Source: Climacium dendroides
Lineage: Eukaryota; Streptophyta; Bryopsida; Hypnales; Climaciaceae
Reading direction: 5' to 3'
NCBI GenBank assembly: GCA_950106755.1
Contig: OX467082.1
Coordinates: forward strand, 27,776,001 to 27,840,000
Length of the DNA: 64,000 nucleotides
Under the pieces are notes generated by a model. The model did not search any database. It was not told the DNA's origin and saw only the letters and a list, made by a program, of their open reading frames with translations. Position numbers and translations under genes: made by a program. Of the stretch, positions 3,660-31,990 are shown piece after piece; the stretch's first letter is position 1, and each line of letters begins with the position of its first letter.

Positions 3660-4523
3660 CACTATAAGAAAACCGGCAGTTTTGTGACGTCAGAAAAAAC
3701 GCCATTTTCTGTCAACGTAGATGTCACCTAAAATGTGTTATAATGGACAGGCAAAAAACGTCCCCATGTTTTGCAAAAAACATGCAAATTTGGGCTTGTT
3801 TTTGGATTGACATGGGTTGAGACATGGAAATGCAAGTTCCCCAAAATGTGCCATTTGGCACTCCATGTGGGTGCCACATTGGCGGGCAGCGCCACATGGG
3901 ATTCTTTTTCATCCATTCCCTTCTTGACGTGGCATATGACGTGGATAGTGACGTGGACCCCTTCAAGGGTGACGTGGACGATGTAAAATCTGACGTGGCA
4001 TTTGATGACGTGGACTATGCACTGCTTCTTTTAGTGAAAATCTGATGTTGTGCGTGACATCATTGAAGACGCAACTATGTTTTTTGTGACATCATTTGTG
4101 ACAATCACGGGTTTTAAGGTCGGTCTTCTGTGTTATATTGTATGTTTCAGTAGACATGTAAAGGAACAAGGACAGTATCATAAATCATCAACAAGAACAT
4201 CAAGGCCTTGTTTGTTCAAATGCATGTGTTCTTCCTGTTGTTGTTCAGGATATCATCAAGGACAAGCACTCCCACTTGTGATTGTTAATGCTCTATTCAC
4301 TATAACATTTAGAAAAAGGCAGGTGTGCACCAAGGACATCACTGGCATGTTAAAAACATGTTTTGGCTGACATAAAAACAAATGAAACATGTTTTGAACA
4401 ACATTAGGCGGAGTGCAAACTATGGCTTCCATGTTTGCTACAGACAACAACTTATACATGACTGAATTTTGAAGGACATGACCAAGGACATAAGAAAAGA
4501 CAAGAATGACCTGCCCACCCCAT
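3660..4523. repeat. Left subterminal region of the outer CACTA with TGACGTGG motifs
   Basis: TGACGTGG or GACGTGG recurs several times between about 3920 and 4015, at irregular spacing, along with GTGACATCA variants at 4050-4100. Comparable TGACGT words appear near the right end (40270-40390). In En/Spm elements such subterminal motifs bind the TNPA-type protein, and that role is inferred here. No gene is seen in the stretch. Confidence 0.6.
4521..4523. repeat. Target-site duplication CAT, left side of inner CACTA
   Basis: CAT at 4521-4523 precedes CACTATAAC. The same CAT at 24876-24878 follows the inverted end. Confidence 0.85.
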
Positions 4524-4739
4524 CACTATAACAATGGCAGGGTTTTATGACTGCAAAAATATGACTGAGGATGACTGGCGACTGGTTGCAGTCATATTTT
4601 GGGAGGCCTAAGTCTTCTGTAGAAATATGACTGGAAAATATGACTGCCAGTCATATTTTGACTTTGTACTACATATACGTATACTATACGCCCATGGGGA
4701 ACATGTTATATTTCATAGGGAACGTGTGGGAACATGTTT

Positions 4740-5340
4740 AGGGAACGCCCAGTCATATTACCAGTCATATTTTTTTTTTCAGTCATATTTTTCAGTCATA
4801 TTTCCACTTTTTTTTTTTTTTTTTTTTTCGGGTAACCCAATGAAAATTTGGGCAGGTGAGTGCATAGTCATATTCTTGTTTCAGTTGTATTTTCCAGTCA
4901 TATTTTTTTGTCAGTCATATTTTCTTGCCAGTCATATTTGTCAGTCATATTTTATGTCAGTCATATTATTTTGTCAGTCATATTTTTCAGTCATATTTTC
5001 CTGCCAGTCATATTTGCCAGTCATACTTTATGTCAGTCATATTATTTTGTCAGTCATATTTTGCAGTCGTATTTTTGGCCAGTCATATTTTGCAGTCATA
5101 TTTTTGGCCAGTCATATTTTTCAGTCATATTTTTTTGGCAGTCATATTTTTCAGTCATATTTTATAGTCATATTTTATATCAGTCATATTATTTTGCCAG
5201 TCGTATTTTGCAGTCATATTTATTGCTAGTCATATTTTGCAGTCATATATTTGGCTAGTTATATTTTGCAGTCATTTATTTGGTCAGTCATATTTTCCAA
5301 TCATATTTGTCTGCTACTCCTATTTCATAGTCCTATTTTA
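4740..5340. repeat. Left subterminal array of the inner CACTA: direct CAGTCATATTTT repeats
   Basis: Several dozen copies of CAGTCATATTT, nearly all in one orientation and 10-25 bp apart, with variants CAGTCGTATTT and TAGTCATATTT. A run of about 28 T interrupts it at 4802-4829. The long open frame through this stretch (4627-5229) is a by-product of the repeat and is not a gene. Likely role, by analogy with En/Spm, is binding of the TNPA-type protein. Confidence 0.8.
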
Positions 5341-5697: not shown

Positions 5698-6610
5698 TCA
5701 ATTACAATCTCCATCACAATATTGTAGGTCATCCACATGTACTTCGTCTTGTTGTAGACGTTGCAATGCAATTGCCACCACATCAGCTTCTACTTCCACT
5801 GCATCACACAAGATGGGTGTTTTTGGTATGAGGTCTTCAGACAAGTCAGTGGCTTCGAGTCCGTGAAACTCTGTTGTCTTTCCAAGGGATATGCACTCCA
5901 CTTCAGTTGTTCCTTCATGTTCAGAGAACAATCGAACACCTCTCGGTTCCCTGCGGAGTACAACTTCCCATCCATGTCTGGCCTTGTCTGATGCAAAAAA
6001 TACTTGTTCAATGTGGAGAGGGAATGCAAACGACTGTGCTGAGTAAGGAATCAATCTATCGAAATTCACACTAGTGAATCCATACTCATCACGCTTCATA
6101 GTGGCTCCATCGCCCTTCATGTTTGCAACCACCCAATTGCAATATAGTACCACTACCTCAAACTGCCCATAATCTACAGATAGGATTTCTTCCACCTACC
6201 CTACGTACTCTAGCTTTGAGTCCTTCATGTTTTTATCCTTTGCGCCTGCTCGACAAAGTTGTTTAAAGGTTGCTGCTATTCCTGAGTCCATTGTTGTCAA
6301 TTTCTTCTCAACGCTTCGAACACGAATGTGGTTTCCAAATGCATACATGGAACGATATGACTTGGCTCGATCTGATGGAGGTAACATTAGAGTCCTCACA
6401 TCTGTGTCCACTTCTTCTGTACCGACTTCTATAGCTCGTAGCACTGCCTTTGGAAACCAAATATGAAACTTCTCGTCGCACATTTCAGTCGGGTACACTA
6501 CTCGACTTTGATGTTTTTTACGCCTATACTCTTGTCGCTCTCTTTCACAACGGCGCATGTCATCTTCATGCCTCCTACGCCATTCAATAATTGAATGTGT
6601 GAGTTCATTC
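5698..6610 (-). pseudogene. Inner TNP2, C-terminal exon with DUF4216 domain
   Basis: C-terminal part of the CACTA transposase. The minus-strand frame has a basic stretch (RRRHEDDMRRCERERQEYRR), then SMYAFGNHIRVRS, then DSGIAATF, then the DUF4216 core DEYGFTSVNFDRL and FAFPLHIEQVFF followed by GWEVVLRREPRG. It ends at the stop at 5698 after an acidic tail. An in-frame TAG at 6196-6198 stands where the outer copy has tyrosine (EYVGYIEEI). The exon start is approximate, near 6600. The outer copy at 37353-38208 and the third copy at 51245-51952 align throughout. Confidence 0.8.
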
Positions 6611-6949
6611 TGATTTACAAACCTAATACTACTTTGAGTCATACATGCACTTACAATACTCGTTGTAGTCATAAATGCAATTAGATTGCTAGGTTTAGTC
6701 ACAAACGCAATCACTGAAGTAGTTAACCAAAAGAAAAATATACTAATGCTGTTCTCACAGAAATGTTAGCACATGACTATGTGTAGTTACAATTTCATAT
6801 ATGACATTTATATTGCATTACTAAATGGGAACACAAAGAGTGATGGATCTTTTCTCTTCTATGGGATGGAAAAAAACATTATTATTGTCAACATTTGATT
6901 CTAAATGCTCTTATGTAGTAGGGGGGTTATTTCTTTCATAGGACCTCAC

Positions 6950-7848
6950 CTCCTCCACTCCTCCAACGGTGCCACATTGTTCAATACAAACTCGTGAATT
7001 CATTGTTGTAGTTCACTTGATAGGTGGCGTGCTCGTCCACTGCCTTCCAAAATTTCGTCATACATTGATGGATCTTCTTTGTCATCCCACACTCTTCGGG
7101 TGGTCACTATATACTCCTGCATGTATTCAGTATAGAACCCTAGTGCTTCCACCACAGCGTAGCCTTCAGCCATGCTACCCTCTGGTCGAGCCCGATTCCT
7201 AACATATCCTTTTAGTGTCTTCAAATATCTTTCAATGGGATACATCCAACGTATATGAACGGGTCCGCAAATTTCTACTTCTTCCACAAGGTGGACAACT
7301 AAGTGACTCATGATGTCAAAAAAAGATGGCAGGAACTCTTTCTCCAGCATGCAGAATGCTATCACCATATCTGACCTCAATTCCTCTAGAGCATTGGTAT
7401 CAATGGTCTTAGCACATATCCTCCTAAATACACGGCTCAACATAATTATAGCTTTTCGTACCTCCTTTGTTAGCACTGTACGAACATTGAGTGGTAAAAC
7501 TTGTTGCATGAGGACATGGTAGTCATGTGATTTCAAACCCTTCATGGTCCCATTCACATGCACGCGCTTCTTCAATTGACCCACATATTGGGTGGGTGTT
7601 TGCAATGTTCGAATTCCATCTACGAAGACCTGACGTTCCTGTTTCGTAAATGTGTAAGATGAACGAGGTAATATGACGCTCTTAGGTTTTTTCCCAGGTA
7701 TGGGCCACAGATGTTTACGTACACCTGCCTCCTTCATGTTCAAACGGACCTCCAAGGAGTCTTTTTCTCCGTATAAGGTCTTCAACATATTCTCGGTGAT
7801 GTTCTTCTCACAATGCATGACGTCCAATGTGTGTCGAATCAAAAGGTC
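6950..7848 (-). pseudogene. Inner TNP2, middle exon with DUF4218 domain
   Basis: Acceptor CAG at 7849-7851 and donor GTGAGG at 6944-6949. The exon opens with the strongly conserved HTLDVMHCEKN and continues with SHDYHVLMQQVLPL, FRRICAK, SFFDIMSHLVVHLV, CGPVHIRWMYPIERYLKT and RPEGSMAEGY, the signature run of DUF4218. One in-frame TGA at about 7000-7002 falls just before IHEFVLNNVAPLEEW, which still matches the other copies, so the stop is recent and fits a CGA to TGA change. Confidence 0.85.
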
Positions 7849-8046: not shown

Positions 8047-9597
8047 TTTCCAATATGGCAAGTCATACAGACATGTCCTTCTCTTCACTCCGTGCTTGTG
8101 TACTGGATCTACCAAATTTTCTACTCCATTTTCACGAGACTTTGTCAACCATTCCTCTCGCTCTTTTGCATAACGAAGTTGTTCTCGACCAGTCATTCTT
8201 CTAGGTGGAGGTCTTTCATCCACTTCACCATCAAATGTACCCCTCTGTCGTCTCCACTGATGAGTCATAGGCAAGTATCGTCTGTGCCCCATATACAAGT
8301 TTTTTCTCAAGGCTTTAGAACGCCTAGTTACTATATGTGGCCCACATACTGGACATGCTCTATATCCTTTTGTTACTTGACTTGAGATTAATCCATATGC
8401 TGGAAAGTCATTCACCGTCCACATGAGAATGCCATATAACTTGAATGATTTCACTTCTGAGTTTTTGCAAGATCCGTCCAAGCAATCAACCCCTCTCCAT
8501 AGTTCTTGAAGCTCCTCAATCAATGGTGCTAGGTACACATCTATGTTCTTCTCTGTTACACTCTCTTTTCCTGGAATGATTAACGTAAGCATCATAAAGA
8601 AATTTTTTGTCACCAACCAAGGGGGAAGATTGTAATTGAGCATAATCACTGGCCAAGTTGAATGGCTAAGGCTTTGGTTCTGAAATGGATTCACACTATC
8701 CAATGCCAAGCCAAGTCTGACATTGTGCTCGTCTTCAGCAAACCATTGCCACTTGTTGTTCACATAATTCCAAGCCTTGGAATCTACAACCGATCTCATC
8801 ACCTTGTCTTTGCTTTTCCCACCTACATGCCATTTCATGAAGTCCGCCAATTGTGTATTGCTATACATTCTTCTTAATCGTGGAATCATAGGGAAGTGTC
8901 TCAATACTTTCATTGGTACACTGTTGGAGTTCTCTACATATCGGGATTTGTGGCAAGTAGGGCACTGTACTGCGTCTTGTAGTTCGTTGCGGAACAAACA
9001 ACATCCATCTCTACACGCATGTATAGAATTGTATGACAACCCCAACTTCATCAAAAGACTTTTGGCTTCATAAAATGATTTGGGAAGTGAATTCTCTTTT
9101 GGTAATATGGTCTCTGTCAACAACTTCAGCAACTCATCAACAAAACTATTAGAGACACCATGAGTAGTGCAGCTCACTAGCAACATGAGCGTGGACATCA
9201 AACGATTGGAATCGCTTCCCACGTACAAAGGAGTTTGTGCTTCTCGCAAAAGAACATTCATATCCACGCCAGTTACATCTTCCATGTTGGTTGAAGTCCC
9301 CTCTCTCTCCATCCGGTCATTGTTGGCATCCACTTGCTCGTCAAGATTGTTAGTGTATGAACCTCGTAAATCATTTATCCTCAAACCATCTTCATTTGTT
9401 GCATCCTCAAGTGTGTCCGTAATAATATTCTCAATTCCTTCTCCACGGACATGTATGCTGTCATACTTGTTAAAGCACTCTGTTACCATATGGAGCACAT
9501 CCACCTCTCCAACATTTGGAGAGGGGTCTCGTTGAATAGGCTCTCCTCGAACACTTCTTCGTTTATGCAATCGGAGGTCCACAGGAGCATAGTCATC
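8047..9597 (-). CDS. Inner TNP2, main exon: Transposase_21 catalytic region
   Basis: Core of the CACTA transposase, which cuts at the terminal repeats. The exon runs from acceptor CAG 9598-9600 to donor GTAAGT 8041-8046 and has no internal stop. An acidic leader is followed by GLSYNSIHACRDGCCLF, a zinc-like CPTC pair, and HFPMIPRLRRMY. The Transposase_21 core follows: RLGLALDSVNPF, STWPVIMLNYNLPPW, NIDVYLAPLIEELQELW, WTVNDFPAYGLIS and KGYRACPVCG. The exon ends DLPYWK at the same position as the outer copy. The aspartates in LALDSVNP and NIDVYL are conserved in all or most copies and are candidates for the metal-binding triad of this family. Confidence 0.92.
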
Positions 9598-10091: not shown

Positions 10092-10667
10092 TCAATTTAC
10101 ATAGTAATGTGCATAGAGTTCCTCTCCAGCCACAATATCCCTTGACGCTATTGTCATTACATATCCCCACTCCAAGTTGTTCCATGGTTTGAGCAGCATG
10201 CGGAACTCCCACATGACGTTCCCTAACTCCTCTTGACCTATAGAACTATTAATAAATCCGGCTACATTTCCCTTCAATACATCTCCGTCTATATACAAGT
10301 CTGGCTCAACTTCCATCACATATGACTTTATGCGAGGCTGTCCTTCCTTCAAAATTTTATACTCTGCTAGTGTGTACTGGGGTCCTACAAAGGGAAGTAA
10401 CTCTTCCCCTTTTTTCGCGGGTTGCAGGGCAAAAAGACCCCAACCCATGAAAGGAAACGTTAATACCTTCACATCCCAATTTCTTTGCCAATAGGAAAAT
10501 ATTGTTAGTTTCGGTATGGGACCATCACACCACTGTCCATCATACACATTTGACCTCCACTTCTCTAAAGCCACTACTCTTGTAGACGTTCCTTTCAGTG
10601 TGCCATTCGTTGAAGTATGTGTCTCTCTTACAAATGTTTGTAAAGAAACCAAAGAGGAGGCTTCCAC
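10092..10667 (-). CDS. SET-domain protein nested in the first intron of the inner TNP2 gene
   Basis: An open frame of about 191 codons. SET domains are lysine methyltransferase folds. Seen here: MGWGLFALQPAKKGEEL (residues 74-90, the GxG entry and the first acidic strand), GNVAGFINSS (133-142, equivalent to the NxxxFxNHS cofactor-binding motif) and RDIVAGEELYAHYY (176-189, matching IxxGEEL...Y). The annotated start is GTG at 10667. A spliced start or an upstream acceptor is likely, since the frame stays open only a few codons further. I see no pre-SET cysteines or post-SET motif. It lies wholly inside the 1.2-kb intron joining the two first TNP2 exons, on the same strand. Neither other TNP2 copy has it. 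Activity and target are unknown. Confidence 0.8.
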   Translation of the reverse strand: MEASSLVSLQTFVRETHTSTNGTLKGTSTRVVALEKWRSNVYDGQWCDGPIPKLTIFSYWQRNWDVKVLTFPFMGWGLFALQPAKKGEELLPFVGPQYTLAEYKILKEGQPRIKSYVMEVEPDLYIDGDVLKGNVAGFINSSIGQEELGNVMWEFRMLLKPWNNLEWGYVMTIASRDIVAGEELYAHYYVN

Positions 10668-10788
10668 ATAGGGTCTTCACAAGGCCTACACAAGTCATTG
10701 AAACTTTAAGAAAACAATGTAGATGTATATCATTGACAAAAGCATACTGTTTTTTTAATAAACAATTCATTATTTTCAATGTCCTTAC

Positions 10789-10986
10789 CAAGATAGAGGC
10801 CGTAAAAGCTGGGTCCCTCTTCTTGCTGCGAAGATGTTTTCGAATTGTACGTCTATCAAGCACTTTTCCTCCTGCACACTTCATGCAGGGGCATGGGTAC
10901 TTTGTTAGACGCATGTTATCTGCTTGAATTTCTTCTTCTTGCCATAATCGTAGCTCTTGCAAACTTTGAAGCTCCCCCTCAGACAT
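10789..10986 (-). CDS. Inner TNP2, first exon: transposase-associated zinc-type domain
   Basis: Starts at ATG 10986 (MSEGELQ) and ends at donor GTAAGG (10783-10788). The motif YPCPCMKCAGG, followed by TIRKHLRSKKRDPAF, matches the pattern CPCxxC...H(L/F)...(G/K)RDxxF at the N-terminus of the outer and third TNP2 copies and of the Pfam transposase-associated domain. The exon ends in phase 0, and the main TNP2 exon starts in phase 0 with GATGACTATG, giving ...ASIL-DDYAPVD across the join. This shows the SET ORF is skipped in the transposase mRNA. Confidence 0.75.
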
Positions 10987-11555: not shown

Positions 11556-13865
11556 CCTAGCTAGGCATAGTGATGTGACTTCGCTCACATCACCAACTGT
11601 ACATCTACGTTGGATGCCAAGAACATTGCAACATTTCAAGTATAATTTGGTATTTCATGCCAACGCACAATGCAATGGGACAATACAAGGACCACCAACA
11701 CAAAGGCCAGACATCCTTTTCTATTAAGTATGAAAAATGCCCGTTTCGTAGCTTGCTCAAAAATAGGCATTGTGGCGAACTGTGCCAAAGCGGGCCACCT
11801 CCACTAACAACACAGATATACCTAACAGCACGTGGGAACATAGAGGTCATACTAAGACTACTATTGCTGCACACCTGTAGTTAACCCCTCAGCACCTCTT
11901 GCCCCCCCAAAAGGGGCACTACTCTAAATTGAAGTTGATCCTATAACTTCACAAATCCAATGTTTACTACCTTGTGTTTACTTAAGGGAAATAAGATTAC
12001 CATATGGAGGTCTGCCAAGTGGGGTTGGACGTGTACATAATCGGTAAATGGAGTGGGTGGCCTTTGTTATCCAGAAGGGTACAAGAAAATTGCTACTTTT
12101 CTCTTTGGATGAGTTCCAAGGTAATAGGGGCAACGCTAGTGGCCGGTTGCAAATGCTTGGGGTATGACATCTCTAATTCGATTTCCTTGCATATGTTTGT
12201 AGTGCAAGGTGACTGAATTACGTATAAGTCAATCCTATACCTAGCAGCCTGTCTGTTCAAGCGTTTCAAACTTCGTTGCCTTTCATTCAAGGTTTGACTT
12301 TGGAGATTTGATACGCTAAACTCAATCCTAAATTGGACAAGTGACCCATAACTTCTTTCTACTCTTGTGGCTATAATTTCAGGAGCATTTCATGATTCTT
12401 CCTATTGAAGATTCTATAAAACTAACCTTACGGAAGACAACAACTATTAGTAACAATGTATGAATCTAGCAAAACCGAATTCAAGACAATACAAAGAGGT
12501 AATGAATTGGCATGTGAAGACAAGCACCTTCTCTAGGAAATAGACAGAGCACGCCCCAACATCTTCATAAAAGGAAAGATCCACCAAAACTGATGAAAGG
12601 GAGGATCCACCAAAAAATTCTCCACATTAGTTTCAATGAGTTCGTATTGAAGAACATGAACAGTACCAGTACCTTCGGAACGTGCCTATCAGTGATGCAC
12701 AGTTACGTGTCTTCAATCATTAATATCTGATTTCCATTGCGTACGAGGTTTATGTTATGATATAGAATTCAAACTGAAATCCTAAAACGTAAAACAATTG
12801 ACAAATTTTAATTTCCACAATGATGGCGAGAGTCTACGAACTGTTACATCTTATTGGTCAACAACACGGTAGCTATATTCTCAATGGCTTCACTTGTTCT
12901 CATAGTGCGTGCATTTTGAACTCCAAACCATAAATATTTAATGGTCAAGAACATGGTCGCATCAATCTTTTGCCTTCAATTATACTCATGATGCCTTGTT
13001 CAACTTGAATTCAGGAACGTGATACTTAAATTAAGAATGAGGATACCCAAAGGATCACAATTTATATTTTTTTATGAAAGGAAAAATCATATTTACAAAC
13101 AAGAGAGTGCTAGGTTCAGGGCTTAAAAAAAATTATATTTATCAAGGACTGACAGTGCACCATTCCAAACTCCAACCACAAACAGTGTTGTTTTAGGCAC
13201 AAATACTTTCAATTTTCAAAAGGTGACTACAGGGTGAGAGTATGAAACTAAAAATTAAGATTTCTAGAACCGGAGACGCTGTGACATTGAGAAATCACGT
13301 AATTTCAGATTTCGAAATTGTATCTCCTTACAACTTTTACATTTGCACCAAGTTCAGATTTGGACAAAGATATCAACTGAAGAAAACAATCTTGAGGATA
13401 GAAACCAAAGAACAAGAGCAAATCTGAAATATATATTGGAAGAAAAAAGAGGTTGAAATATATGCATTGGTAATTGAAATTTTGAAAGAACCCAGAATAC
13501 ATTCACCACTACCTAACTATTCAGTTCTTCCAATTTTTTCATGAACCTACTATGGACAAACTAACAAATCAATCAAATTCACCAAAACATTGGACTTGTG
13601 AATCCTCCAATATTCCCTAAATATCTGAATCCACTAAAAGTCCCTAAATATCTGAATTCTTACACAATGAGTGGCAAGCTCAAGACAACAACAATAGTAG
13701 TGGCAATGTGATTACTGATTTGTAAAAAATATATCATGAGCATCACAAGTTTGATCCTTCTGTTTCAAGAGGAATACTTTTTCAGATTCTTATCAAATGA
13801 TCCTGGTCGTAATCCATATTAGAAGTAAGCAGATTAATTAAACCAAAGGCGAATAATAAACTTAC
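11556..13865. other. Central spacer of the inner CACTA, no gene recognised
   Basis: AT-rich sequence, with small open frames on both strands (for example 11605-11884 and 12004-12290) that I could not relate to any family. It may contain introns or exons of the RAD5A-like capture whose next exon would lie to the left, but no further helicase motifs were found on reading it. Confidence 0.35.
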
Positions 13866-14426
13866 TTAAATTCAATAACGATATTGGACATGAGTTGAAG
13901 GACTGCTAAAGCACTGCGGCATTTGCGTTTCACCTGAACTTGGCCTGAATTGACAAGGGGTATCAAGGAACGAGCCAAATCTCCAGGAATACGTCCAACC
14001 TGGTATCCCAGCTCAAAAGAAGGTCAACATTCGGAACAGTAAATTAGGAGGAAGGTACGTTTATCTCACCAGGTAGTACTTGGTTAGTACGACTCAGAGA
14101 CAACTGTGGCTATTTTCAGTTTCAGAAACGATGAAGTGTTAAGAAAATTCTGCGATGGATGGAGAAAAAAACATTACCTCTGCTGACCTCCGACAAGAAA
14201 AGCGGACGATTTCAGTGGCTGCTGTTGCACCCTTGCCTCGTCCACAAGGCCCCCTCCTAGCATGTGCAGCACTAGCTGGCTTAGGAAAGTAGAACTGCAA
14301 AGAATCCCCAACTTCAAGCTTGGGACCCTTGCAAGTAGAGAAGCCCAGAACTTCGGCTTCGCCAAGCAAAACCCAGTCACTGTTGGAGCCACTCCGACGT
14401 GCAGCAAACTTTTTGTAGGTGGAGGT
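13866..14426 (-). pseudogene. RAD5A-like: Captured RAD5A-like fragment: HIRAN domain, two exons
   Basis: RAD5A is a plant SWI/SNF helicase and ubiquitin ligase in post-replication repair; its N-terminal HIRAN domain binds DNA. On the minus strand, exon 1 (open 14426-14178) contains SDWVLLGEAEVLGFSTCKG, then KLEVGDSLQFYFPKP, a glycine- and arginine-rich linker and TEIVRFSCRRSAE, ending at donor GTAATG. After a 178-bp intron with acceptor CAG 14000-14002, exon 2 (13999-13866) reads VGRIPGDLARSLIPLVN and KCRSALAVLQLMSNI, ending at donor GTAAGT. Order, spacing and the intron-split E|VGRIP agree with RAD5A as I remember it. The helicase and RING parts are absent. The frames are open and the splice sites intact, which suggests recent capture. 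Confidence 0.75.
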
Positions 14427-18690: not shown

Positions 18691-18976
18691 TGATCTTTCG
18701 TGATTGTTTGTAGTTTGGAGAGGCCAATTACAAAGATTTGTGCTCATTGTAGACATTTTTTTGATAGACATGAGGTAGAAATTAGGAGTTCAGACTCATG
18801 TGATGAAAATTAGATAATTAGAATTTGCATTTCCTAGATAGTAACTCAGAAGTTACACTTCATGTTTTGTAAAAATTTATTTATTTTTATTTTTTTTTGA
18901 GTTATGTAGGACATGAAGGTCCTCCTCCTATACTTATTATACTCATATTATAAGTTGTTTCTTTCTGCATTTACAG

Positions 18977-19855
18977 TTGCTTAGCCATCAACATCATCAC
19001 CCTAGGCCGTGGCCCAAGGAAGCCACACAGAAGAAAAAGATGACTTCATCAACAGAAATGATGGTCACAACACCATTGGAAGAGGACAATTTTTTGTTCG
19101 ATGACACAGAGGAGACAATGATGGGGGAGGAATCGGATGAAGATATTGAGCAACACTTTAGTACGGAGGAGGATGGAGATGTCCCAAATGAAGAGTTGTC
19201 CAATGATGTAGTGGATGAGTTGGAGTTACGGGAAGTCAGCATATTGAAGCGCATGGCAAAGAGTGGAGCAAACTTGAAGGAAGTACGTGAGAAAATGCGG
19301 AAACTGAGTGGAAATGAAGGGAAGGAAGTTAGCAATGTGGACCGCAACAGAAGTCTTCAACGACAATCCAATTTGAAGCAATTCAGGAGGGATCTGCAGA
19401 AGGTTGATGATAGAGATTGGGTTGAAGTGGACCTTGTCGGTTGTCCTACAGGAGTGCATAGGGCGGATTGGTTGACAAAGCTGCGTGGATATTCTCGTGA
19501 TTTGGATTGGAGTGTGGATGACTTCAATTCACATCCCCGACCTCTGCTATTAGCAATCAAGGACAAAATGGCATCCAAATTCGAGTATCGTGGTGGGAAG
19601 GGCGATGTTCCTGATAATGTCTTCTTCCGCATTTTGAGGTCCCAAATGAAGACAAAGAGAGCAAACATGAAGAAATTGATAGAGGCCGAAGCTCCCATTC
19701 CTAGAACTGTGAAGGCTCATCATGTAGAGAACTTCAAGAAGCTCATCAAGAGGACAGACAAAGTAGCATATTCAGAACGCATGAAGGTTGCACGGCAAAC
19801 CGTGCAAAAAGTGTCCTATAGTGGCCGATATGAGGGAGAAGTGAAGTCACGACTG
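18977..19855 (+). CDS. Inner TNPA-like gene: Transposase_24-type (Ptta/En/Spm) domain exon
   Basis: Starts after acceptor TTACAG and ends at donor GTAAGT (19856). About 290 codons without a stop. A histidine-rich start is followed by a strongly acidic stretch (residues about 30-80) and a basic region. The conserved block DWVEVDLVGCPTGVHRADW leads to ARQTVQKVSYSGRYEGEVK. The last part has the W/F...K...SE..K.AR.......Y.GR layout of the Transposase_24 family, and the third element's equivalent (62289-63126) is an even clearer match. In En/Spm the TNPA-type protein binds the subterminal motifs; the same role is inferred here. Confidence 0.65.
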
Positions 19856-20432
19856 GTAAGTGAAAGAGATGTCTACACTTTTGTAACTTCTATTTACGCA
19901 TGTGATTGTAGATGGGTGTTCGTAGTCATTGTCTTTTGGATTTTATTTTTATAAACATGAAATTCTGAATGTAATATGTGTGCAAGGTAAACTTTGTTGG
20001 TCATATGACAATGCTTAGCCATAAGTAGGACATATTCAGGAGAAGAGGAAATGATGGATAGGATGTTGCTTTGAGTTCTTGCAATCATAAATAACAGACA
20101 TTAATGTACTTAAAATTGTATTTAGATTGTATTGTGACTAAGTATAGTTATATTTAGCCTTGTATGTGACTACTTGAAGTCATATTTGGATGTACATGTG
20201 AATATGTATAGTCATGTGTAGGTAATCATAAAAGTACATGTGCTCATATTTGGTTTTCAATATGAGAAGTTTCATTTGAAAATAGTAAGTTATGTTAGTA
20301 GTAGTTGTTGTAATTGGACATGTGCATCACAATGTGAAATAGTTTATTGTTTGTCAATGCTTTCAAGAAATTTCACTATAGTTGAATGTTTTGGTCTTGA
20401 AATTTACACATATAGGGTTGCCGTCATTGTAG

Positions 20433-20918
20433 GTTGCACATTTGGGGAGACCCCCTACTCAAATGGAAGTGGAAGCAGAGCTTGCTTCACCAGACAAATC
20501 AGTGCACATTCGGTCGTCAAATTCAGGAGGGGCGGGTAGTAATTCAAGGAGGGTGGATAAAGGCATAGAAGAAGTGCGAAACGAATTGTATACATTCCAA
20601 GAGACTGTGAAGGGAGAATTAAGTGAAATGGGTTCCCTAGTGAAGCAGCTTCTGTTTGAAGTCCGCAAGCAGAATGGAAGGAATACACACCCGTCTAGTT
20701 CTGAAATAGGCACCACAATGCCGGAAGTTGCAGGTGGTGAGGAGATCATAGAGGAATTGGTAGGTTTGAAGAAACTTAACCCTCAGAAGATACAGGAAGA
20801 AACAGCCACAGAAGCACATGTATTGAACGTGTCGAAATGTGTTGAGGTAGTGCATGCAACAGTGGAGGTTCGTACAAAAATAAGAAACCCTTTAGTGTCA
20901 TTCAATGTAATTGAATAG
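20433..20918 (+). CDS. Inner TNPA-like gene: coiled-coil exon
   Basis: Begins at acceptor TTGTAG, in phase with the preceding exon (GTT GCA CAT TTG), reading VAHLGRPPTQMEVEAELASP. Residues about 45-85 (GIEEVRNELYTFQETVKGEL and on to VKQLLFEVRKQ) form a heptad-like coiled coil, likely for dimerisation. The outer element (26450-25839) and the third element (63885 to the edge) have coiled coils at the same place in the gene. The 3' exon boundary is uncertain; the frame stays open to 20918. Confidence 0.6.
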   Translation, partial: VAHLGRPPTQMEVEAELASPDKSVHIRSSNSGGAGSNSRRVDKGIEEVRNELYTFQETVKGELSEMGSLVKQLLFEVRKQNGRNTHPSSSEIGTTMPEVAGGEEIIEELVGLKKLNPQKIQEETATEAHVLNVSKCVEVVHATVEVRTKIRNPLVSFNVIE

Positions 20919-20994
20919 GTTTTGTTGCTTTTGTATTTGTTTGGAATTTCATGTGATGTGTAGTAGGCAGACATGAAATCTCAACTACTAAATT

Positions 20995-21258
20995 GTGGAT
21001 GTCATTGTGAGTTTAAAGGATGAAGGCACGATTGATAAGTCAAGAAATGTAAAGCAAAAACCCAACACTTTGCCAGTGCTGGAGCAAATTGAAGAAGTAA
21101 TAGATGTTACAAAAGCAAAAAAGGATCAAGGGAGCGTGAAGAAGAGGAAGGGCGAGGGTCAGAAATTGTGGGTAGACATAAGTTATCAATCTAGGCGTTC
21201 AACGTTGACTGGAGGGAAGACTGGTGAGAAGATGAAGGAGGTGCAAGAGGATCTCAAG
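20995..21258 (+). CDS. Inner TNPA-like gene: lysine-rich linker exon
   Basis: Open frame with KDEGTIDKSRNVKQKPN, then KAKKDQGSVKKRKGEGQK, ending near a GTGTGA donor. Highly basic and likely disordered, with a nuclear-localisation-like cluster (KKRKGEGQK). The start codon is not real; the exon probably begins after an AG near 21007. No family recognised. Confidence 0.45.
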
Positions 21259-21559
21259 GTGTGATGGACTACCATGACTGTATTCAATGTTGCAGTAGTG
21301 TATGGTATTGTGTGTGCAAAAGGGGTGGGAACAAGGTATAATTCTTATAGGTGAACATATAATTATGGATTGCGTCCTTCCTTTAAAATGGTAGATGGTG
21401 CAATGTTAGACAGAATGTAGGGAGGTTCATGTTATGGAATATTTTTAGTACGTGTATGAGTTCTATTGGACATGTTTGTGGATTAGGTGCCATAACTTGA
21501 ACAAAAGCATGTGTGCATAATTAGAAGCAGTAATATGTAGAAGAAAACAAGTGCTGGTG

Positions 21560-21860
21560 GTCATAATCTCTATTATGTGACTAATTGCAGTTATTATTTG
21601 CATGATGCGACTGACCATAGTAGTAATCTTTAGTACATGACTGGTGTCAGTCATATTATGCAGAATGTGACTGTTGGCAGTCATATACTGTTGTGCATCA
21701 CTAATGCTAGTCATATTCTATAGTATATAACAATTGTCAGTCATATTATATATTTTAGAGTAAATGGCAGTAATATTTTTTAATATATAACTAGTGGAAG
21801 CTGTATTTTAAAATATATACGTAATGACAACTAAATTTTGTATTATGTGGGGAGTCATAT
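21560..21860. repeat. Degenerate intronic CAGTCATAT/ATGTGACT motifs
   Basis: Between coding blocks. Words such as TGGTGTCAGTCATATT, TTGGCAGTCATA and ATGCTAGTCATATT recur every 40-60 bp alongside ATGTGACT and ATGACTG, an inverted pairing of the same core as the terminal array. No coding potential. Confidence 0.5.
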
Positions 21861-22275
21861 TAATGTTTTTGTCAGATGTATGTGCCATACGTTTTCGTAT
21901 GTAGCTTTGTTAACCTTTGATTATTTGTATCCATTTCTATTTAGAGGGATAGTAATTTCTTGTTTTGGTCTAAGAGGATCCTTTTGTTGTACAAAGTGTA
22001 TGAAAAGGAGTATTCGTATTTCTCATTATGTGAAGTCGTACCATGAAGTATATTTTGTCGCATGTTGTGGGGGTCGATAATTTTTCATCATTTAAATGAA
22101 GTGACACTACTATTCCAAGTGTATAATAGTGGGTGTTGTACTTTTGAAGTCTCAAAAGTGTTCTTGAGTCGTATGTATTTATGTTTCATAATTGATATTT
22201 TGTTGTTGTATGTGTTGAATTTATAATTGTTATAATACCATGACATTGAATACTAAATTGTTGATGTGCATGTAG

Positions 22276-23016
22276 ATTGGAGCAAGAGGCTCTAGAGAAC
22301 ATCATTTGGAATTCGATTCCAAATTAATGGAAGAAGAGCCTACCAAAAGGAGGGGGCCAATGAGGGCCGCAAAGGTTGGAAAACCTTCAAAGAAAAAGAA
22401 TATTTCAGGGAAACTGAAGTTTCCACCGGTGAGAGTTTCGGATGATTCACGAAGAAAGGTACTTGTGTTGAATGTCTTGGGTTTTCTATGTGACATCCGA
22501 CCACTGCATGATGGAAAAGAGTGGGGGTTAGGTGGTACGATCCATTATGAGAGAGAGTTCGAAGTCAAAATTAAGAAAAGGGAAGACTGTGCAGCTTTTG
22601 TGACAATGCTGCACTATCGATTTGATGTGGGGATATGGGCTCTAATTGGAGAGGCACTTCTACAAGAAGTGGCTCGATTCCTAGCTCGGGGGACACCCAT
22701 GAAGTGGTGTTTTTTATGGAGAAAGAAAATTGGTGGTGGAAAAAGAGACTTGCATGATTTATTTGACATGATACCAGATCCAACCCATAGATCGGCTAGG
22801 GTCCTTCAAGTGGACTGGGATTCCACAGCTACCTCTAAGTCACCTGGTACAAATGTATTACACATTGCTGCATGGGATCCTCTAGCTTCAGAAGACAACT
22901 TCCTAAAGAACATGAGAGGACCCTTTGAAGTTTTTAGTCAAAATCCTTTCGACATTGAATATTGTGTGATGTTCTTGGACAAGGCAATCAGTCAGTTATA
23001 GAATCCATTGCCCCAG
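22276..23016 (+). CDS. Inner TNPA-like gene: FCP1-like (HAD phosphatase fold) domain, catalytic site lost
   Basis: Acceptor ATGTAG before 22276; donor GTATGT after 23016. A basic start (KRRGPMRAAKVGKPSKKKN) is followed by a domain resembling plant FCP1/SCP-like C-terminal-domain phosphatases. KVLVLNVLGFLCDI stands in place of the catalytic (V/L)LDLNGLL, RFDVGIWALIGEALLQEV in place of FDVGVWSS...NV, and RVLQVDWDSTA in place of LLIDDSP. The nucleophile aspartate is asparagine and the next acidic or polar position is leucine, so catalysis is unlikely. TAG at 22999-23001 falls 18 bp before a good donor and may be a recent stop or the natural end. A second FCP1-like domain lies at 47049-47643. Confidence 0.65.
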
Positions 23017-23121
23017 GTATGTATTTTTGAATATGTTGTTTGCCTTTCAATTTCAGAAGTGAAAATGAAGCTCCATCGTTTGTTTACTTAATGTCTACAA
23101 CCATTGTAAATGTAAATGCAG

Positions 23122-23478
23122 GATGCACAAGGTGGGAAGAAATATCTTCAAGGTTCTCGAAGCTCAAAGAATGAAAGTCCTATCTCCTTGGCTGTAGGGT
23201 CGAAAGTGAAGGTGTTCGATGTGGACGATGACAACAAGGCAGAAGACAATGTAATTGCACATGGAGTCATAGTGAATGTTGCAGGAGGTTCACTTCATGG
23301 ACGGCTCATTGAAGAGGGCAATGTGTCTATAAGCATAACATCTGTGGTTCCCGGATCGGCGATGGTTCTTCTATATGAGGCAAACAACAACGATGACCCT
23401 CCTATGGTGCATGTAGGTGATGCTGTGAAGTCTGTGACAAAGTGGCCCATTGAAGCGTTGGCTCCTTTAAACGAATGA
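23122..23478 (+). CDS. Inner TNPA-like gene: TNP1/EN/SPM C-terminal (Transposase_23-type) domain
   Basis: Acceptor TGCAG before 23122; stop TGA at 23476-23478. The pattern LAVGSKVKVFDV, then AHGVIVNVAGGSLHGRLI, then VSISITSVVPGSA, then HVGDAVKSVTKWPIEAL matches the layout of the plant TNP1/EN/SPM domain (A.G......VGG..LG...V.V..V......GDA....AWP...L). This is the usual C-terminus of TNPA-type CACTA proteins, which identifies the whole plus-strand gene as the element's second transposition gene. It lies some 400 bp before the right subterminal array. Confidence 0.65.
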   Translation, partial: DAQGGKKYLQGSRSSKNESPISLAVGSKVKVFDVDDDNKAEDNVIAHGVIVNVAGGSLHGRLIEEGNVSISITSVVPGSAMVLLYEANNNDDPPMVHVGDAVKSVTKWPIEALAPLNE

Positions 23479-23879
23479 GGGAAGGTATGCAGTAGTGGAT
23501 TGCTCACTCTAGTATAAAGTGAGGTGTGTGTTTATGTGTTCTCAGTGTGATTTTTTTCATATGTATTTTGAAGTTCAGTAATAAATGTCATTGAAGTACA
23601 TTCTGGAATGTATATCCATGTTTTGTGATTTGAGAAGTTGCAAAGACATGTTTAGGATATGATATTAGAGTGTAAATTTGATTTTCTTTGTTTGGAATAC
23701 AAAATGATTTCTAATTATAGAGACTATTAGTGGAAGTCACTCATAGCAATGAAAAACATGAATGAATAATCCACCAAGTAAGCTTAGGTATCGTAGAACT
23801 GCTTTATCGCTTTTGAAATTCGTACTTCGAAATACATGTGAATACTTCTAAAAATATATAACTAAGCACAGTAACATGG

Positions 23880-24875
23880 AATATGATTCATTGTAGTCAT
23901 ATTGCGTGTCATAAAAAAATATGACTGAACGCAATCATATTGTACATCACTACAAAATGTAACTCCACTGATGAGTCATATTGTACATCACTGCAAAATA
24001 TGACTCATCCTGGTCATATTCGACATAATAATAAAATATGACTCATTGCAGTCATTTTTTAATGTTACTAAAAAATACGACTCACCAGTCATATTTCACA
24101 TCACTACAAAATATGACTGACCGCAGTCATATTTTACATCATTACAAAATATGACTCACCATAGTCATATTTCACCTCACTACAAAATATGACTGACCGT
24201 AGTCATATTCCATGTTACTGCAAAATATGACTCACCACAGTCATATTCCATTTCATCAAAAAATATGACTCAACAGTCATATTCCACATTACTGCAAAAT
24301 ATGACTCGCCGCAGTCATATTCCACATCACTGCAAAATATGACTCGCCGCAGTCATATTCCATGTTACTGCAAAATATGACTGACCACAGTCATATTCCA
24401 CGTCATCAAAAAAATGACTCATCGCAGTCATATTCCACGTCATCAAAAATATGACTCATCGCAGTCATATTCCACGTCATCCAAAAATATGACTCATCGC
24501 AGTCATATTCCACGTCATCCAAAAATATGACTCGATCCAGTCGTATTCCACGTCATCAAAAAATATGACTCGATCCAATCGTATTCCACGTAGGATTTTT
24601 TTATTTGCCCGGGCAGCCCAAATAAAAGTAAAAAATCCCCTAGGAAAGTCAAAGTATACGCCTAGTTGGCATACTATGGCTAAAAATGGGTATTTATACC
24701 CCTCGAAAAATATGACTGCCAATATGACTGATGTCTGAAGCGACTGCTTCTAAACGACTGGAGTCAGTCATATTCCGAGTCATCTACAGTGATTTCTGCG
24801 TCAATCATATTTTTCGATTTTACGACTGCTGCCAGTCATATTTTGCAGTCATAAAACACTGCTTTTGTTGTAGTG
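23880..24875. repeat. Right subterminal array of the inner CACTA: paired inverted motifs, about 43-bp unit
   Basis: More than fifteen units of the form AAAATATGACTCACC, then GCAGTCATATTCC, then a short spacer ending in (T/A)CATCACTGC. Each unit holds one motif in each orientation about 5 bp apart, so each could form a small hairpin. The left array of the same element has single direct copies instead. The last 43 bases mirror the left end. No gene. Confidence 0.85.
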
Positions 24876-25181
24876 CATCCAAGTCTTGTTTCTCCAATTG
24901 CAAATCAAGAGAAACATGACGCATTCCATATGCATATGAGGGAGAACTTCACATACAAGGCATGGACACAAATTTTAAAGATCTATAGAAACCGGACATC
25001 CTTTACAAGAAAGATGTTCTTCCTCTACAAATATTTTGAAGAACACATTGTAATGTTCTGGTCTAAGGTAGAAAAAACAACTAATAGCTGTATATTTCAT
25101 TTGAGTACCTATATGGGACAAACATAGTATTGTAAAGCTAGCCTCCTTTGATGTTGGTTGTGAGAATAGTATCACACCATT
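24876..25181. other. Outer element sequence between inner CACTA and TNPA-like stop codon
   Basis: Begins with the CAT duplication. It would be the 3' untranslated and subterminal side of the outer TNPA-like gene. Short open frames exist on both strands but none is supported. Confidence 0.4.
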
Positions 25182-28566: not shown

Positions 28567-30199
28567 GTTGCCAGGGGGGTCTCGCCAATGTACAAAAAAC
28601 TCACCGTCCTGTTACAAGAACCCCAAGGCACAAGTCAATTGAGCCAAGACCTAGAAAATCAAACCTCCACCAAACACCAACCGCTACAAAGTTTAAAGGT
28701 TCACCAATCGGAAATGTTGCCCTCCTCCACTGATTTGGACGTACCCTGCCGCAATTTCCCTCGTAATCAAATGATCATTGACAACCACCAAGAAATTGAC
28801 GAATCAAACAAACAAATTGCGATACTTCCGAATATTGCAAAGGCAGTTGGAGCTGGAGAGGAGGTCGCATACTACAGCAAATTCAAGACGAGGACATCAT
28901 AGAGGACAGGGGAGAAACAACGACAAGACGGCGGGCTTAAAGCTACCACGGTGGCCTATACCCGGGATCCGACCCTATAGCCGGGGTCAGGCGCACCTTA
29001 ACACCGCGGCAGGTGGGCGCAGGGAAGCTCCGGGTCCAATCTCGTTGCTGGCTTGGATCTTGGTGGGGGAATTGAAAATTTCAATCTTCACATCAGAAAT
29101 TAAAGAAAGGAGGCGGCGCTTCACGAACCATGGAGGCAGGTGCCGCTTCTGAAACGGGAGCTACTGCTCCGACTGCTGCTGCTTGTCGCCCGTCATCGCC
29201 TTTGGACAAGCGCATGCTCCTTCGACTCCCTGCTTCCGCTGGCTTTTTCAAAATCGAGCGCGGGGGAGTACTTCTCATTGCGTGCGAGATGAAATTTGTC
29301 AAAACTATTGCAGCATCCGAGTCAGATTGAGTAGGAGTTGGTGCCTCCGCAAACTATACAACCCTAGTGTGGCTGCGAAGTCCAGGGAGAATTGCCATTC
29401 CGGTTAGTGATACAACGTAGCTCTAATAATTGAAATCTTGAAGGCAAATGAGGTCTGCAGCGTCCATCAACTGTTCTATGGAGTCTACTGTTTGCCTTTC
29501 TTTTTGCCAAATCCACGTGAGACACGTACAGAAGAAGCTATCATGATGGATTGACTTGGTCCGTACTGTAAACCGTCATCTTGGATGTCACGGCAGACAT
29601 CAGTCGTGACATGTACTTTGCAATTTTCATGTTTTCTAGTAAAACCACATGCATGATAGAGAAATTTCAATACATAGACCCTAAGAAATTTTTCTCACTT
29701 CGAGAATTAGCTGACCAGAATTTCTAGTCATATAATAGGTGGAGGTATACATGTCAATTAGAGCTTGCAAAGGCATTAATGATACAAATGGACAAGGAAG
29801 CTTGGCATGACTCCCCTTAGTTTGCGTCGTTCCTCATTTCCAAAGACTGGAGAACACCACAGAAAATTTTGGAATCCTGCTAAGCATGTTTGGTATACAA
29901 ACAACACTTGAACAATAAGGCTTTCACTCTATGATCCTCGTCTGCAGAGACATCTACTATCATGTCACTGATAATCTAAAATGCTGTGGAGGATGTCAAA
30001 GAAGACGTCTTTCATGACAATATTATCATGTCACTAAAAATATAGAATGTTGTGGAGGATGTCAGAGAAGACGTCTTTCATGACAATATGTTTGCATAGC
30101 AAGTATTAACAAGTATGATGTCTTCATGCAGGAGCTCTGCCACCCAAGTGAAAATTGTTCAAATGAATTGTGTATACATGCAGTAGCTCTACAGTGCCC
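28567..30199. other. Divergent promoter region between outer TNPA-like and TNP2 genes
   Basis: No gene supported. It holds GATGTC and GACGTC words, including a near-exact duplicated block at 29994-30031 and 30053-30090 (GTGGAGGATGTCA.AGAAGACGTC, then TTTCATGACAAT). Similar words occur in the TNPA-like introns at 28060-28130. They match the element's TGACGT-type terminal motif. The stretch must contain both transcription starts; no clear TATA box was chosen. Small frames at 29093-29330 are not supported. Confidence 0.45.
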
Positions 30200-31990
30200 A
30201 TGGCCTACCGTACCAATGTAGATGCACGTCGACGTCAAACCACCATACGAATTACGGATGATGGTCGCACACTATGCCACATTCCTATAGGTGACTTGAT
30301 ATTGCAAACGGAGTTGCGAGTGGCCACTGAGAACAACATACGCTCTTACAGGTGTCCTTGTAGAGATTGCAAGGGCTCATGTCGAAAAAGTATTGAAGTT
30401 ATTCAACGACACCATGCAACGGTGGGTCGGGATCCCTTCATCAAAGAATCCATCCTTGGGGGAGACCCCCCGGATGGCTACCCCTCTCGAGGTTTATGGG
30501 TGGAGGATGTTGCTTTTGACGATGATGTTCGAGAAGGTGTTGGTTCAGATGAGGCACCTGACATAGGCAACATTCATGCAGATGTTGGAAATGATATGCA
30601 AGAAGACGTTCCTCCTCCTTTGGATGAATATCATGAGGTCCAACGTCAGGTGATGGAGGCCTTTGATAGGGGGGATGCGTTGCACGAGGAGTTTGGGCCT
30701 ATGCAAGAAGGGGTTGATGAGGATGACATTGCTGCGGCCACAATAGATGGCTTGGACGAATTGTACCAAGAAGCAACCACAGCCATCTTTCTAGGTTCAA
30801 AGACAAGCATTGTTTCGGCCACTATTATCCTAATGAACATGTGCAATGTCTTCCATGTGAGCAACAAATTTACTGATGAGTTGTTCCGCTTCCTTCATGT
30901 GGATTTGTTGCCATCGGGGAACAAGTTGCCTGGCAACCACTATGAGGCACGCCGAAGCATTCGCCGCCTAGGCTTGAGTTACAACAATGTTCACGCATGC
31001 CCTAATGGATGTGTACTTTTTGAAGATGAATATGCCAGCCTAAACACTTGCCCTAAGTGTGGCCAAGGTCATTGGATTTTTGGGACAGACAAAGTTCTGT
31101 CCAAGGTCATTCGGCATTTTCCTTTAATTCCTAGACTTAAACGCATGTGGAGGTCATCTGAGATAGCACGCATGCTGACAGGCTATAAAAAACATGTCAG
31201 CAATGACGGCATCATGCGCTCAGTTGTGGACAGCCCTGCATGGAAACATATTGATACAGACATCGCTTTTGGCAACTTTGGTTCTGAGATTCGCAACCTC
31301 CGTCTAGGTTTGGCCTTAGACGGTGTCAATCCTTTCAAGTTGAACAACACAAATTGGTCTACATGGCCTGTGCTAATCTTGATTTACAACCTGGAGCCAT
31401 GGTTTGTCACCAAGAAATTCTTCATCTCTTTGTGCATTTTGATTTCAGGGAAGAAGTCACCTACTTCTAACAATATAGACGTCTTCATGCGCCCCCTACT
31501 AAATGAGTTGCATGAATTGTGGCATGGTGTTGGAGCCCAAGATTTCTCCCAACCCATAGGAAGTCGAAGTTTTACATTGCGCGCATTGCTGTTCTGGACA
31601 ATCTCAGATTTCCCAGCTTTAGGGTTGATTTCAAGACTTTGTTGCAAGGGCTATAGGGGCTGCCCTTCTTGTGGACCAGATACAGATTCACGCATAGCAA
31701 AGACAGGTGATGTGCTCCATAATGGACGCACAAGGGGTTCGAAGATTGTATATGGTGGAGCCCGTCGTTATTTACCTCACAACCACCCTTATCGACGGAA
31801 TAGAAGATTTAATGGCAAGGTGGAGCACCGTTGCGTGCCAAGGATCATGTCGGGGTAAGATGTCATTCGCTATGCGGCATGGCGACAATCATACTTGGAT
31901 ATGGGCGGAAAAGAGAATGGACCTGATGATCCAGTGCATACAACTGGGGTGAAGCGTTTGAGTGCTTTCTATGAGTTTGATTATTGGAAG
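30200..31990 (+). pseudogene. Outer TNP2, first exon: associated domain plus Transposase_21 region
   Basis: ATG at 30200 lies in a good context (GCCCATGGCC). The N-terminus has SYRCPCRDCKGS, then RHHATVGRDPFI, the transposase-associated domain. An acidic region follows, then LGLSYNNVHACPNGCVLF, a CPKC pair, RHFPLIPRLKRMW, and the Transposase_21 core LRLGLALDGVNPF, STWPVLILIYNLEPW, NIDVFMRPLLNELHELW, WTISDFPALGLIS and KGYRGCPSCG. TAA at 31856-31858 interrupts the frame. The homologous sequence continues (DPVHTTGVKR, then FDYWK) to donor GTAAAA at 31991. This matches the inner copy exon for exon except that here the associated domain is not split off. Confidence 0.88.

Follow-up and report, generated by a model that had tools for sequence, protein, structure and literature searches.

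Why should a reading frame for a SET domain lie inside an intron of a transposase gene? The question is raised by a 64,000-nucleotide stretch of the moss Climacium dendroides (contig OX467082.1, positions 27,776,001 to 27,840,000; hereafter the window, meaning the whole stretch analysed), in which a CACTA/EnSpm DNA transposon carries such a frame between exons 1 and 2 of its transposase gene. We propose that the SET frame is probably an alternative 3′-terminal exon of that gene, kept by selection, the use of which would give a protein joining the N-terminal Transposase-associated-like (Transpos_assoc) module to SET in frame. We favour this reading because the copies of the element have a conserved in-phase splice acceptor, lack a common start codon, keep the stop codon and show a low ratio of nonsynonymous to synonymous change (dN/dS).

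The original prediction had placed a SET-like open reading frame (ORF), on the strand of the transposase, wholly inside an intron of about 1.2 kb whose flanking exons join in phase 0, and this layout stands. Exon 1, ending at 10789, can be joined from a GTAAGG donor to exon 2, which opens at 9597 after CAG in phase 0, and the 1191-nt intron so defined encloses an ORF of 194 residues (10092-10676, minus strand). A Pfam profile search, the check proposed at the time, finds PF00856 (SET) in this ORF at 5.6e-10 (40 bits, cut-off 22.4), and also in two copies from the second subfamily of the element (37.8 and 35.3 bits). A fold model from 55 sequences reaches a mean pLDDT of 83.3, the 28 N-terminal residues of the ORF staying below 50; an earlier model from 18 sequences was poor (48.5). 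On profile and model, the ORF is a SET domain with a predicted SET fold. As positioned by alignment to MLL1, the window copy carries the GWG of the GxG motif, G80, Y119, N143 and Y191 are kept in at least 90% of the 55 sequences and G78 in at least 90% of 18, and we take G78 and G80 of GxG, together with Y119 and Y191, to have the roles of the SET active site. The Pfam search found no pre-SET match in the ORF, the one NCBIfam hit, to a model for bacterial SET effectors, is far too weak (27.1 bits, cut-off 550), and fold comparison gives no substrate type, with SET8, ASH1L, Set1, EZH2 and SET7/9 tied.

Further CACTA copies with an intronic SET, a search for which had been suggested, are found across the genome (412.6 Mb in 123 contigs). 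The SET query, with 80 candidates scored, gave 78 matches, a lower bound; 58 of these at least 78 are full-length, starting at residue 1 or 2 and reaching 194, and internal stops are absent from 39 of the 58, so that the ORF is not always broken in related elements. The window aside, the full-length matches are 91-97% and 79-86% identical to the window copy. With the transposase exon as query, the best 84 of 913 candidates, which do not exhaust the families present, were scored; of the 69 close matches among them (77-100% identity, and not 69 elements, two matches being pieces of one), a search of the 20 kb upstream finds SET on the matching strand for 68, partial matches and distances of as much as 9 kb included, and at 56 it lies 490-499 bp before exon 2. 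The single close match lacking SET (C40:513051; L045) is 5′-truncated in the stretch read, with no exon-1 match among the matches listed. No SET match lies upstream of any of the 15 distant transposase matches (43-49% identity) within the 84, nor, as had been observed from the letters of the window, is there any among the matches listed for its other two TNP2 copies, one of which (30167-31855) holds both transposase domains in a single ORF, Transpos_assoc scoring 14.7 bits there. In two distant CACTA copies, L043 and L044, whose transposase is 47-48% identical, an intron occupies the same position in the same phase, with boundaries SML/GTAAGT and SML/GTAAAA and acceptors GCAG/CC, and the stretch read contains no SET. 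This fits the entry of SET into a pre-existing intron, to judge from these sequences the likeliest order of events, the reverse order being possible too. A third CACTA lineage (L041, L042, L054 and L055) was considered as a functional SET carrier and rejected, its SET being decayed and its transposase broken. Beyond the family, SET matches include repeated pieces ending at profile position 68-73 (for example C1:51593583 with C3:2766883, and C34:2061833 with C3:43478642), which may represent host gene families or other SET-bearing elements.

Splice sites and selection were compared in 33 of the 58 full-length matches, 21 from subfamily 1 and 12 from subfamily 2. The comparison puts the start of the SET exon at 10685, directly behind an acceptor whose AG is invariant (Table 1), and in phase with exon 1; the usual form is GTGACTTGTGTAG/GCC TTG TGG AGA CCC, and in 32 copies the acceptor supplies TAG as the codon before the exon, where L024 has GAG. 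Identity between subfamilies falls from the donor to 0.640 in the spacer, rises to 0.874 over the last 24 nt before the SET exon, is 0.893 over its first 36 nt and 0.882 over the rest, and drops to 0.730 after the stop; exon 1 stands at 0.890. The 33 copies have no in-frame ATG in common ahead of the SET core: in subfamily 1 there is none before codon 79 (FMGWGLF), with two copies lacking even that, and copies of subfamily 2 have additional ATGs at codons 37, 46 or 75. The terminal TGA is kept in 33/33, and a donor after the SET exon is not conserved, since the GT just before the stop is not kept across the copies. The fused frame of exon 1 and SET is whole in 25 of the 33 (16/21 in subfamily 1 and 9/12 in subfamily 2). 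As its third codon the SET exon has TGG in 30 copies, but the window copy reads TGA, and L029 and L039 read TAG; the stops arose from a Trp codon by separate G-to-A changes, for which methylation-driven decay is perhaps responsible. The absence of internal stops that had been claimed therefore holds for the ORF 10092-10676 and fails for the exon from 10685. Likewise, the suggestion of alternative splicing gains comparative support from the in-phase acceptor, the lack of a shared start and the kept stop, but the window copy, with its TGA, could not make the fusion.

Between subfamilies the SET frame has a dN of 0.068 and a dS of 0.387, a ratio of 0.176 (252 pairs from the 33 copies), or 0.148 from majority letters, both far below 1. 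The ratio is 0.138 in the SET core, lower than the 0.244 of the N-terminal part; exon 1 gives 0.134, and the SET stretch read in shifted frames gives 0.96 and 2.3. Within subfamilies SET gives 0.256 and 0.438 and exon 1 gives 1.02 and 0.334, on few changes, and these higher ratios are as expected from copies decaying after insertion. Judged from these comparisons, the SET protein sequence is under selection.

In the model that we propose, one donor after exon 1 would serve two products. Skipping of the SET exon would remove the 1191-nt intron and lead to the TNP2 transposase, while use of the nearby acceptor would remove an intron of 103 nt and give a short protein of the N-terminal module and SET, ending at the SET stop. 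The exon-1 module, which probably binds zinc, could bring the SET enzyme to the ends of the element, where it might set an activating mark, of H3K4 or K36 type by weak profile similarity, and so counter host silencing. Methylation brought to the element's own copies would be the most likely job of SET, probably directed against silencing. That a single gene would hold both a mobilising enzyme and a self-targeted anti-silencing enzyme, one placing an activating histone mark on its own copies, with the balance set by splice choice, is a possibility that we advance tentatively.

Several observations weigh against SET as an alternative exon. The third codon of the exon is a stop in three of the 33 copies, and the window copy is among the eight with broken frames; exon 1 looks unconstrained within subfamily 1, where its ratio of about one stands on few changes; and exon 1 scores 21.8 and 22.2 bits against PF13963 (Transpos_assoc), under the cut-off of 27.7, with a U-box model scoring similarly (21.7 and 21.0 bits against its own cut-off of 21.4). 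The canonical NHSCxPN is not found, NHSC of MLL1 reading NSSI in the window copy (N retained, with S in place of H and I in place of C). In an older lineage (L041 and L042) SET has decayed with exon 1 still open, so SET can be lost, although the transposase there is broken as well. A query with the fusion returned 20 proteins, none of them a full-length fusion (highest coverage 75%), and four homologues (P0001, P0002, P0004 and P0025) start with MASL, MASM or MAAL at the same alignment position near the SET N-terminus, so that elsewhere SET may be a gene of its own.

These last two points are what would be expected if SET were also here a separate nested gene, with a promoter of its own and a start that is either not conserved or not AUG, yielding a free methyltransferase and leaving the acceptor-like sequence to serve another 5′ exon or nothing. 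We consider this unlikely, as no start codon upstream of the SET core is common to the copies and coding-like conservation reaches the acceptor, upstream of the homologues' Met position, which P0014 and P0015 also extend beyond. SET homologues elsewhere comprise 35 proteins of 48-79% identity, or 105 with a family profile, most of them unnamed at source, and none was confirmed in viral and prokaryote contigs. Among them, two metagenome proteins, P0100 (164 residues) and P0098 (229 residues, apparently frame-shifted in its SET part), carry in one frame an exon-1-like stretch (RCPCKKYMGGRVLSRNTIRQHLRQYRRDPAFKTSMLV in P0100), about 26 residues of linker and then the SET N-terminus (DVLQRPHILALAS...DVYDGQWGP). 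P0072 (155 residues), a third metagenome protein from the same related group, has the same linker and begins at the end of the exon-1-like stretch (MLV). Since a short intron left unspliced could account for the linker, the three support the order and frame of the parts and prove no protein; P0100 matches Transpos_assoc weakly, under the cut-off at 16.4 bits, and P0098 matches no Pfam family. Separately, P0099, P0102, P0103 and P0104 are distant small SET proteins with GFINSS-like motifs, and P0102-P0104, which are mutually alike, might be another mobile SET family.

Alternatively, the spliced Transpos_assoc-SET protein could be made and have lost methyl transfer, acting as a regulator, for example by partnering the transposase in a dominant-negative way at the terminal inverted repeats (TIRs). 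The NSSI reading would fit this, as would ELYAHY at the ELTYDY of MLL1 and the Asn that the NIF-like protein of the element has, in 9/9 copies read, at the presumed position of the first catalytic Asp; the retention of G80, Y119, N143 and Y191 and the stronger constraint on the SET core than on the N-terminal part speak for a working enzyme, and we hold loss of activity to be quite doubtful.

A Pack-CACTA passenger is a captured sequence, unconstrained and variable between copies. SET differs on both counts, being present at nearly all close transposase matches among those scored and having a frame-specific dN/dS of 0.15-0.18 over a dS of about 0.39, and its homologues are found elsewhere. That SET is a functionless host fragment taken up by transduplication is thus very unlikely, even though CACTA elements do capture host sequence in the accounts cited (PMC8616336, PMC13317346), the present one carries a HIRAN fragment with 8 genomic matches, and SET decays in one older lineage. 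That SET is a cassette exon spliced into exon 2 to give a SET-transposase is scarcely credible, for the GTAAAT just before the SET stop in subfamily 1, in phase 0 with exon 2, reads TT in five of 12 subfamily-2 copies and GTCAAT in the other seven, and the stop itself is kept in 33/33.

The window element is a CACTA/EnSpm DNA transposon by its TIRs, its 3-bp target-site duplication (TSD) and its TNP2, DUF4218 and DUF4216 domains (Table 1). It spans 4524-24875 (20.4 kb), with TIRs starting CACTA (CACTATAAC... and CACTACAAC...), long subterminal repeats, and CAT on both sides, both ends having been checked for the window element alone. The left terminus, allowing up to 8 mismatches, is present in 21/21 long copies including the window, each with a different flank, so the long copies are separate insertions. 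A second gene set runs in the opposite direction at about 18917-23480, as read from its ORFs. Its NIF/FCP1-like ORF has 89 genome matches and reads Asn in LNVLGFLCDI at the position that is presumably the first catalytic Asp of the family; with that residue, the protein is perhaps a phosphatase-like binder. The HIRAN fragment, which presumably resembles a RAD5-like host gene, is probably captured sequence, and the capture looks recent; its upstream ORF (14142-14426), the part with the 8 genome matches, has itself no Pfam match, and neither this nor the NIF-like ORF has a match among solved structures.

Table 1. Features of the CACTA element and its SET exon in the window
Feature	Position	Strand	Basis
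SET exon with terminal TGA; window copy also has premature TGA at 10679-10677	10092..10685	-	comparison of copies, Pfam, fold model
Splice acceptor AG of SET exon, 103-nt intron from donor	10686..10687	-	AG in 33/33 copies
Shared splice donor GTAAGG	10783..10788	-	GT in 33/33 copies; +1 to +6 identity 1.000 between subfamilies
Exon 1, 66 codons (198 nt) from a Met start, with a Transposase-associated-like module (C-x-C-x2-C...H); ends in phase 0	10789..10986	-	PF13963, 21.8 bits, under the cut-off of 27.7; dN/dS 0.134 between subfamilies
Exon 2, Transposase_21 (TNP2)	8047..9597	-	PF02992, 6.3e-71; 3′ end placed by eye at GTAAGT
Transposase exon 3 with DUF4218	7003..7848	-	PF13960, 1.1e-36; 5′ end placed by eye at an AG
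DUF4216 region, two ORFs split by a stop in the window copy	5701..6765	-	PF13952, 3e-08 in 5701-6195
Left TIR, CACTATAACAATGGCAGGG...	4524..4553	+	sequence read
Right TIR, CACTACAACAAAAGCAGTG...	24846..24875	-	sequence read
TSD, CAT	4521..4523, partner 24876-24878	.	both flanks of the element
Subterminal AGTCATATTTT repeats, left side	4866..5308	.	sequence read
Subterminal repeats, right side	23916..24571	.	sequence read
HIRAN-domain fragment between the two gene sets	13865..14426	-	PF08797, 2.9e-6 in 13865-14023
First large ORF of the second, oppositely directed gene set	18917..19951	+	no Pfam match
NIF/FCP1-phosphatase-like ORF of the second gene set, in both subfamilies	22276..22998	+	PF03031, 3e-4, 20.9 bits (cut-off 21.8)

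To our knowledge, transposons have rarely been found to encode factors that counter host silencing. Here, in dozens of copies in one genome and with SET relatives elsewhere, a predicted histone-methyltransferase exon is tied to the N-terminal module of a transposase through a splice choice that is conserved and matched in phase; should the protein be made, it would be a natural tethered epigenome editor and would allow a direct test of whether a plant transposon modifies the chromatin of its own copies. The nearest precedents are SET-bearing Harbinger and MuDR transposons, SETMAR and VANC. VANC of the VANDAL elements is likewise a factor of a plant transposon against silencing and sequence-specific (PMC10398659, PMC12730594); VANDALs are MuDR-type, and a SET domain goes unmentioned in those descriptions. 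Fungal DNA transposons, some of them EnSpm-like, are described as carrying TET/JBP (PMC12730594), again a chromatin- or DNA-modifying enzyme on a DNA transposon, but a DNA dioxygenase rather than SET. Pack-CACTA elements, as reported (PMC8616336, PMC13317346), share with the present family a CACTA with host-derived coding sequence, yet are non-autonomous passengers, whereas SET, lying within the transposase gene, is fixed across the close family and appears to be selected. SETMAR (Metnase) likewise joins SET to a transposon DNA-binding protein, and it binds HsMar1 ends, the bound loci being more strongly repressed at better-kept ends in the account given (PMC8327481); it is a domesticated fusion with a mariner transposase, while the present element, with no mariner domain in the ORFs searched, belongs to a selected multicopy mobile family in which the parts would be joined by splicing. 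The HarbingerS and SET-bearing MuDR transposons of Phytophthora are DNA transposons that also encode SET histone-methyltransferase genes (PMC12730594, citing Kojima and Jurka 2014). Compared by descriptions, those are oomycete Harbinger or MuDR elements; in the present one the ORFs searched contain only TNP2-type transposase domains and no Harbinger transposase, and SET would be an in-phase alternative exon. No SET-bearing CACTA was found described in the titles, abstract openings and passages of the open-licence literature searched. SET genes in DNA transposons are thus already known from Harbinger and MuDR, and what appears to be new is a CACTA element with SET as a putative alternative exon of its transposase gene.
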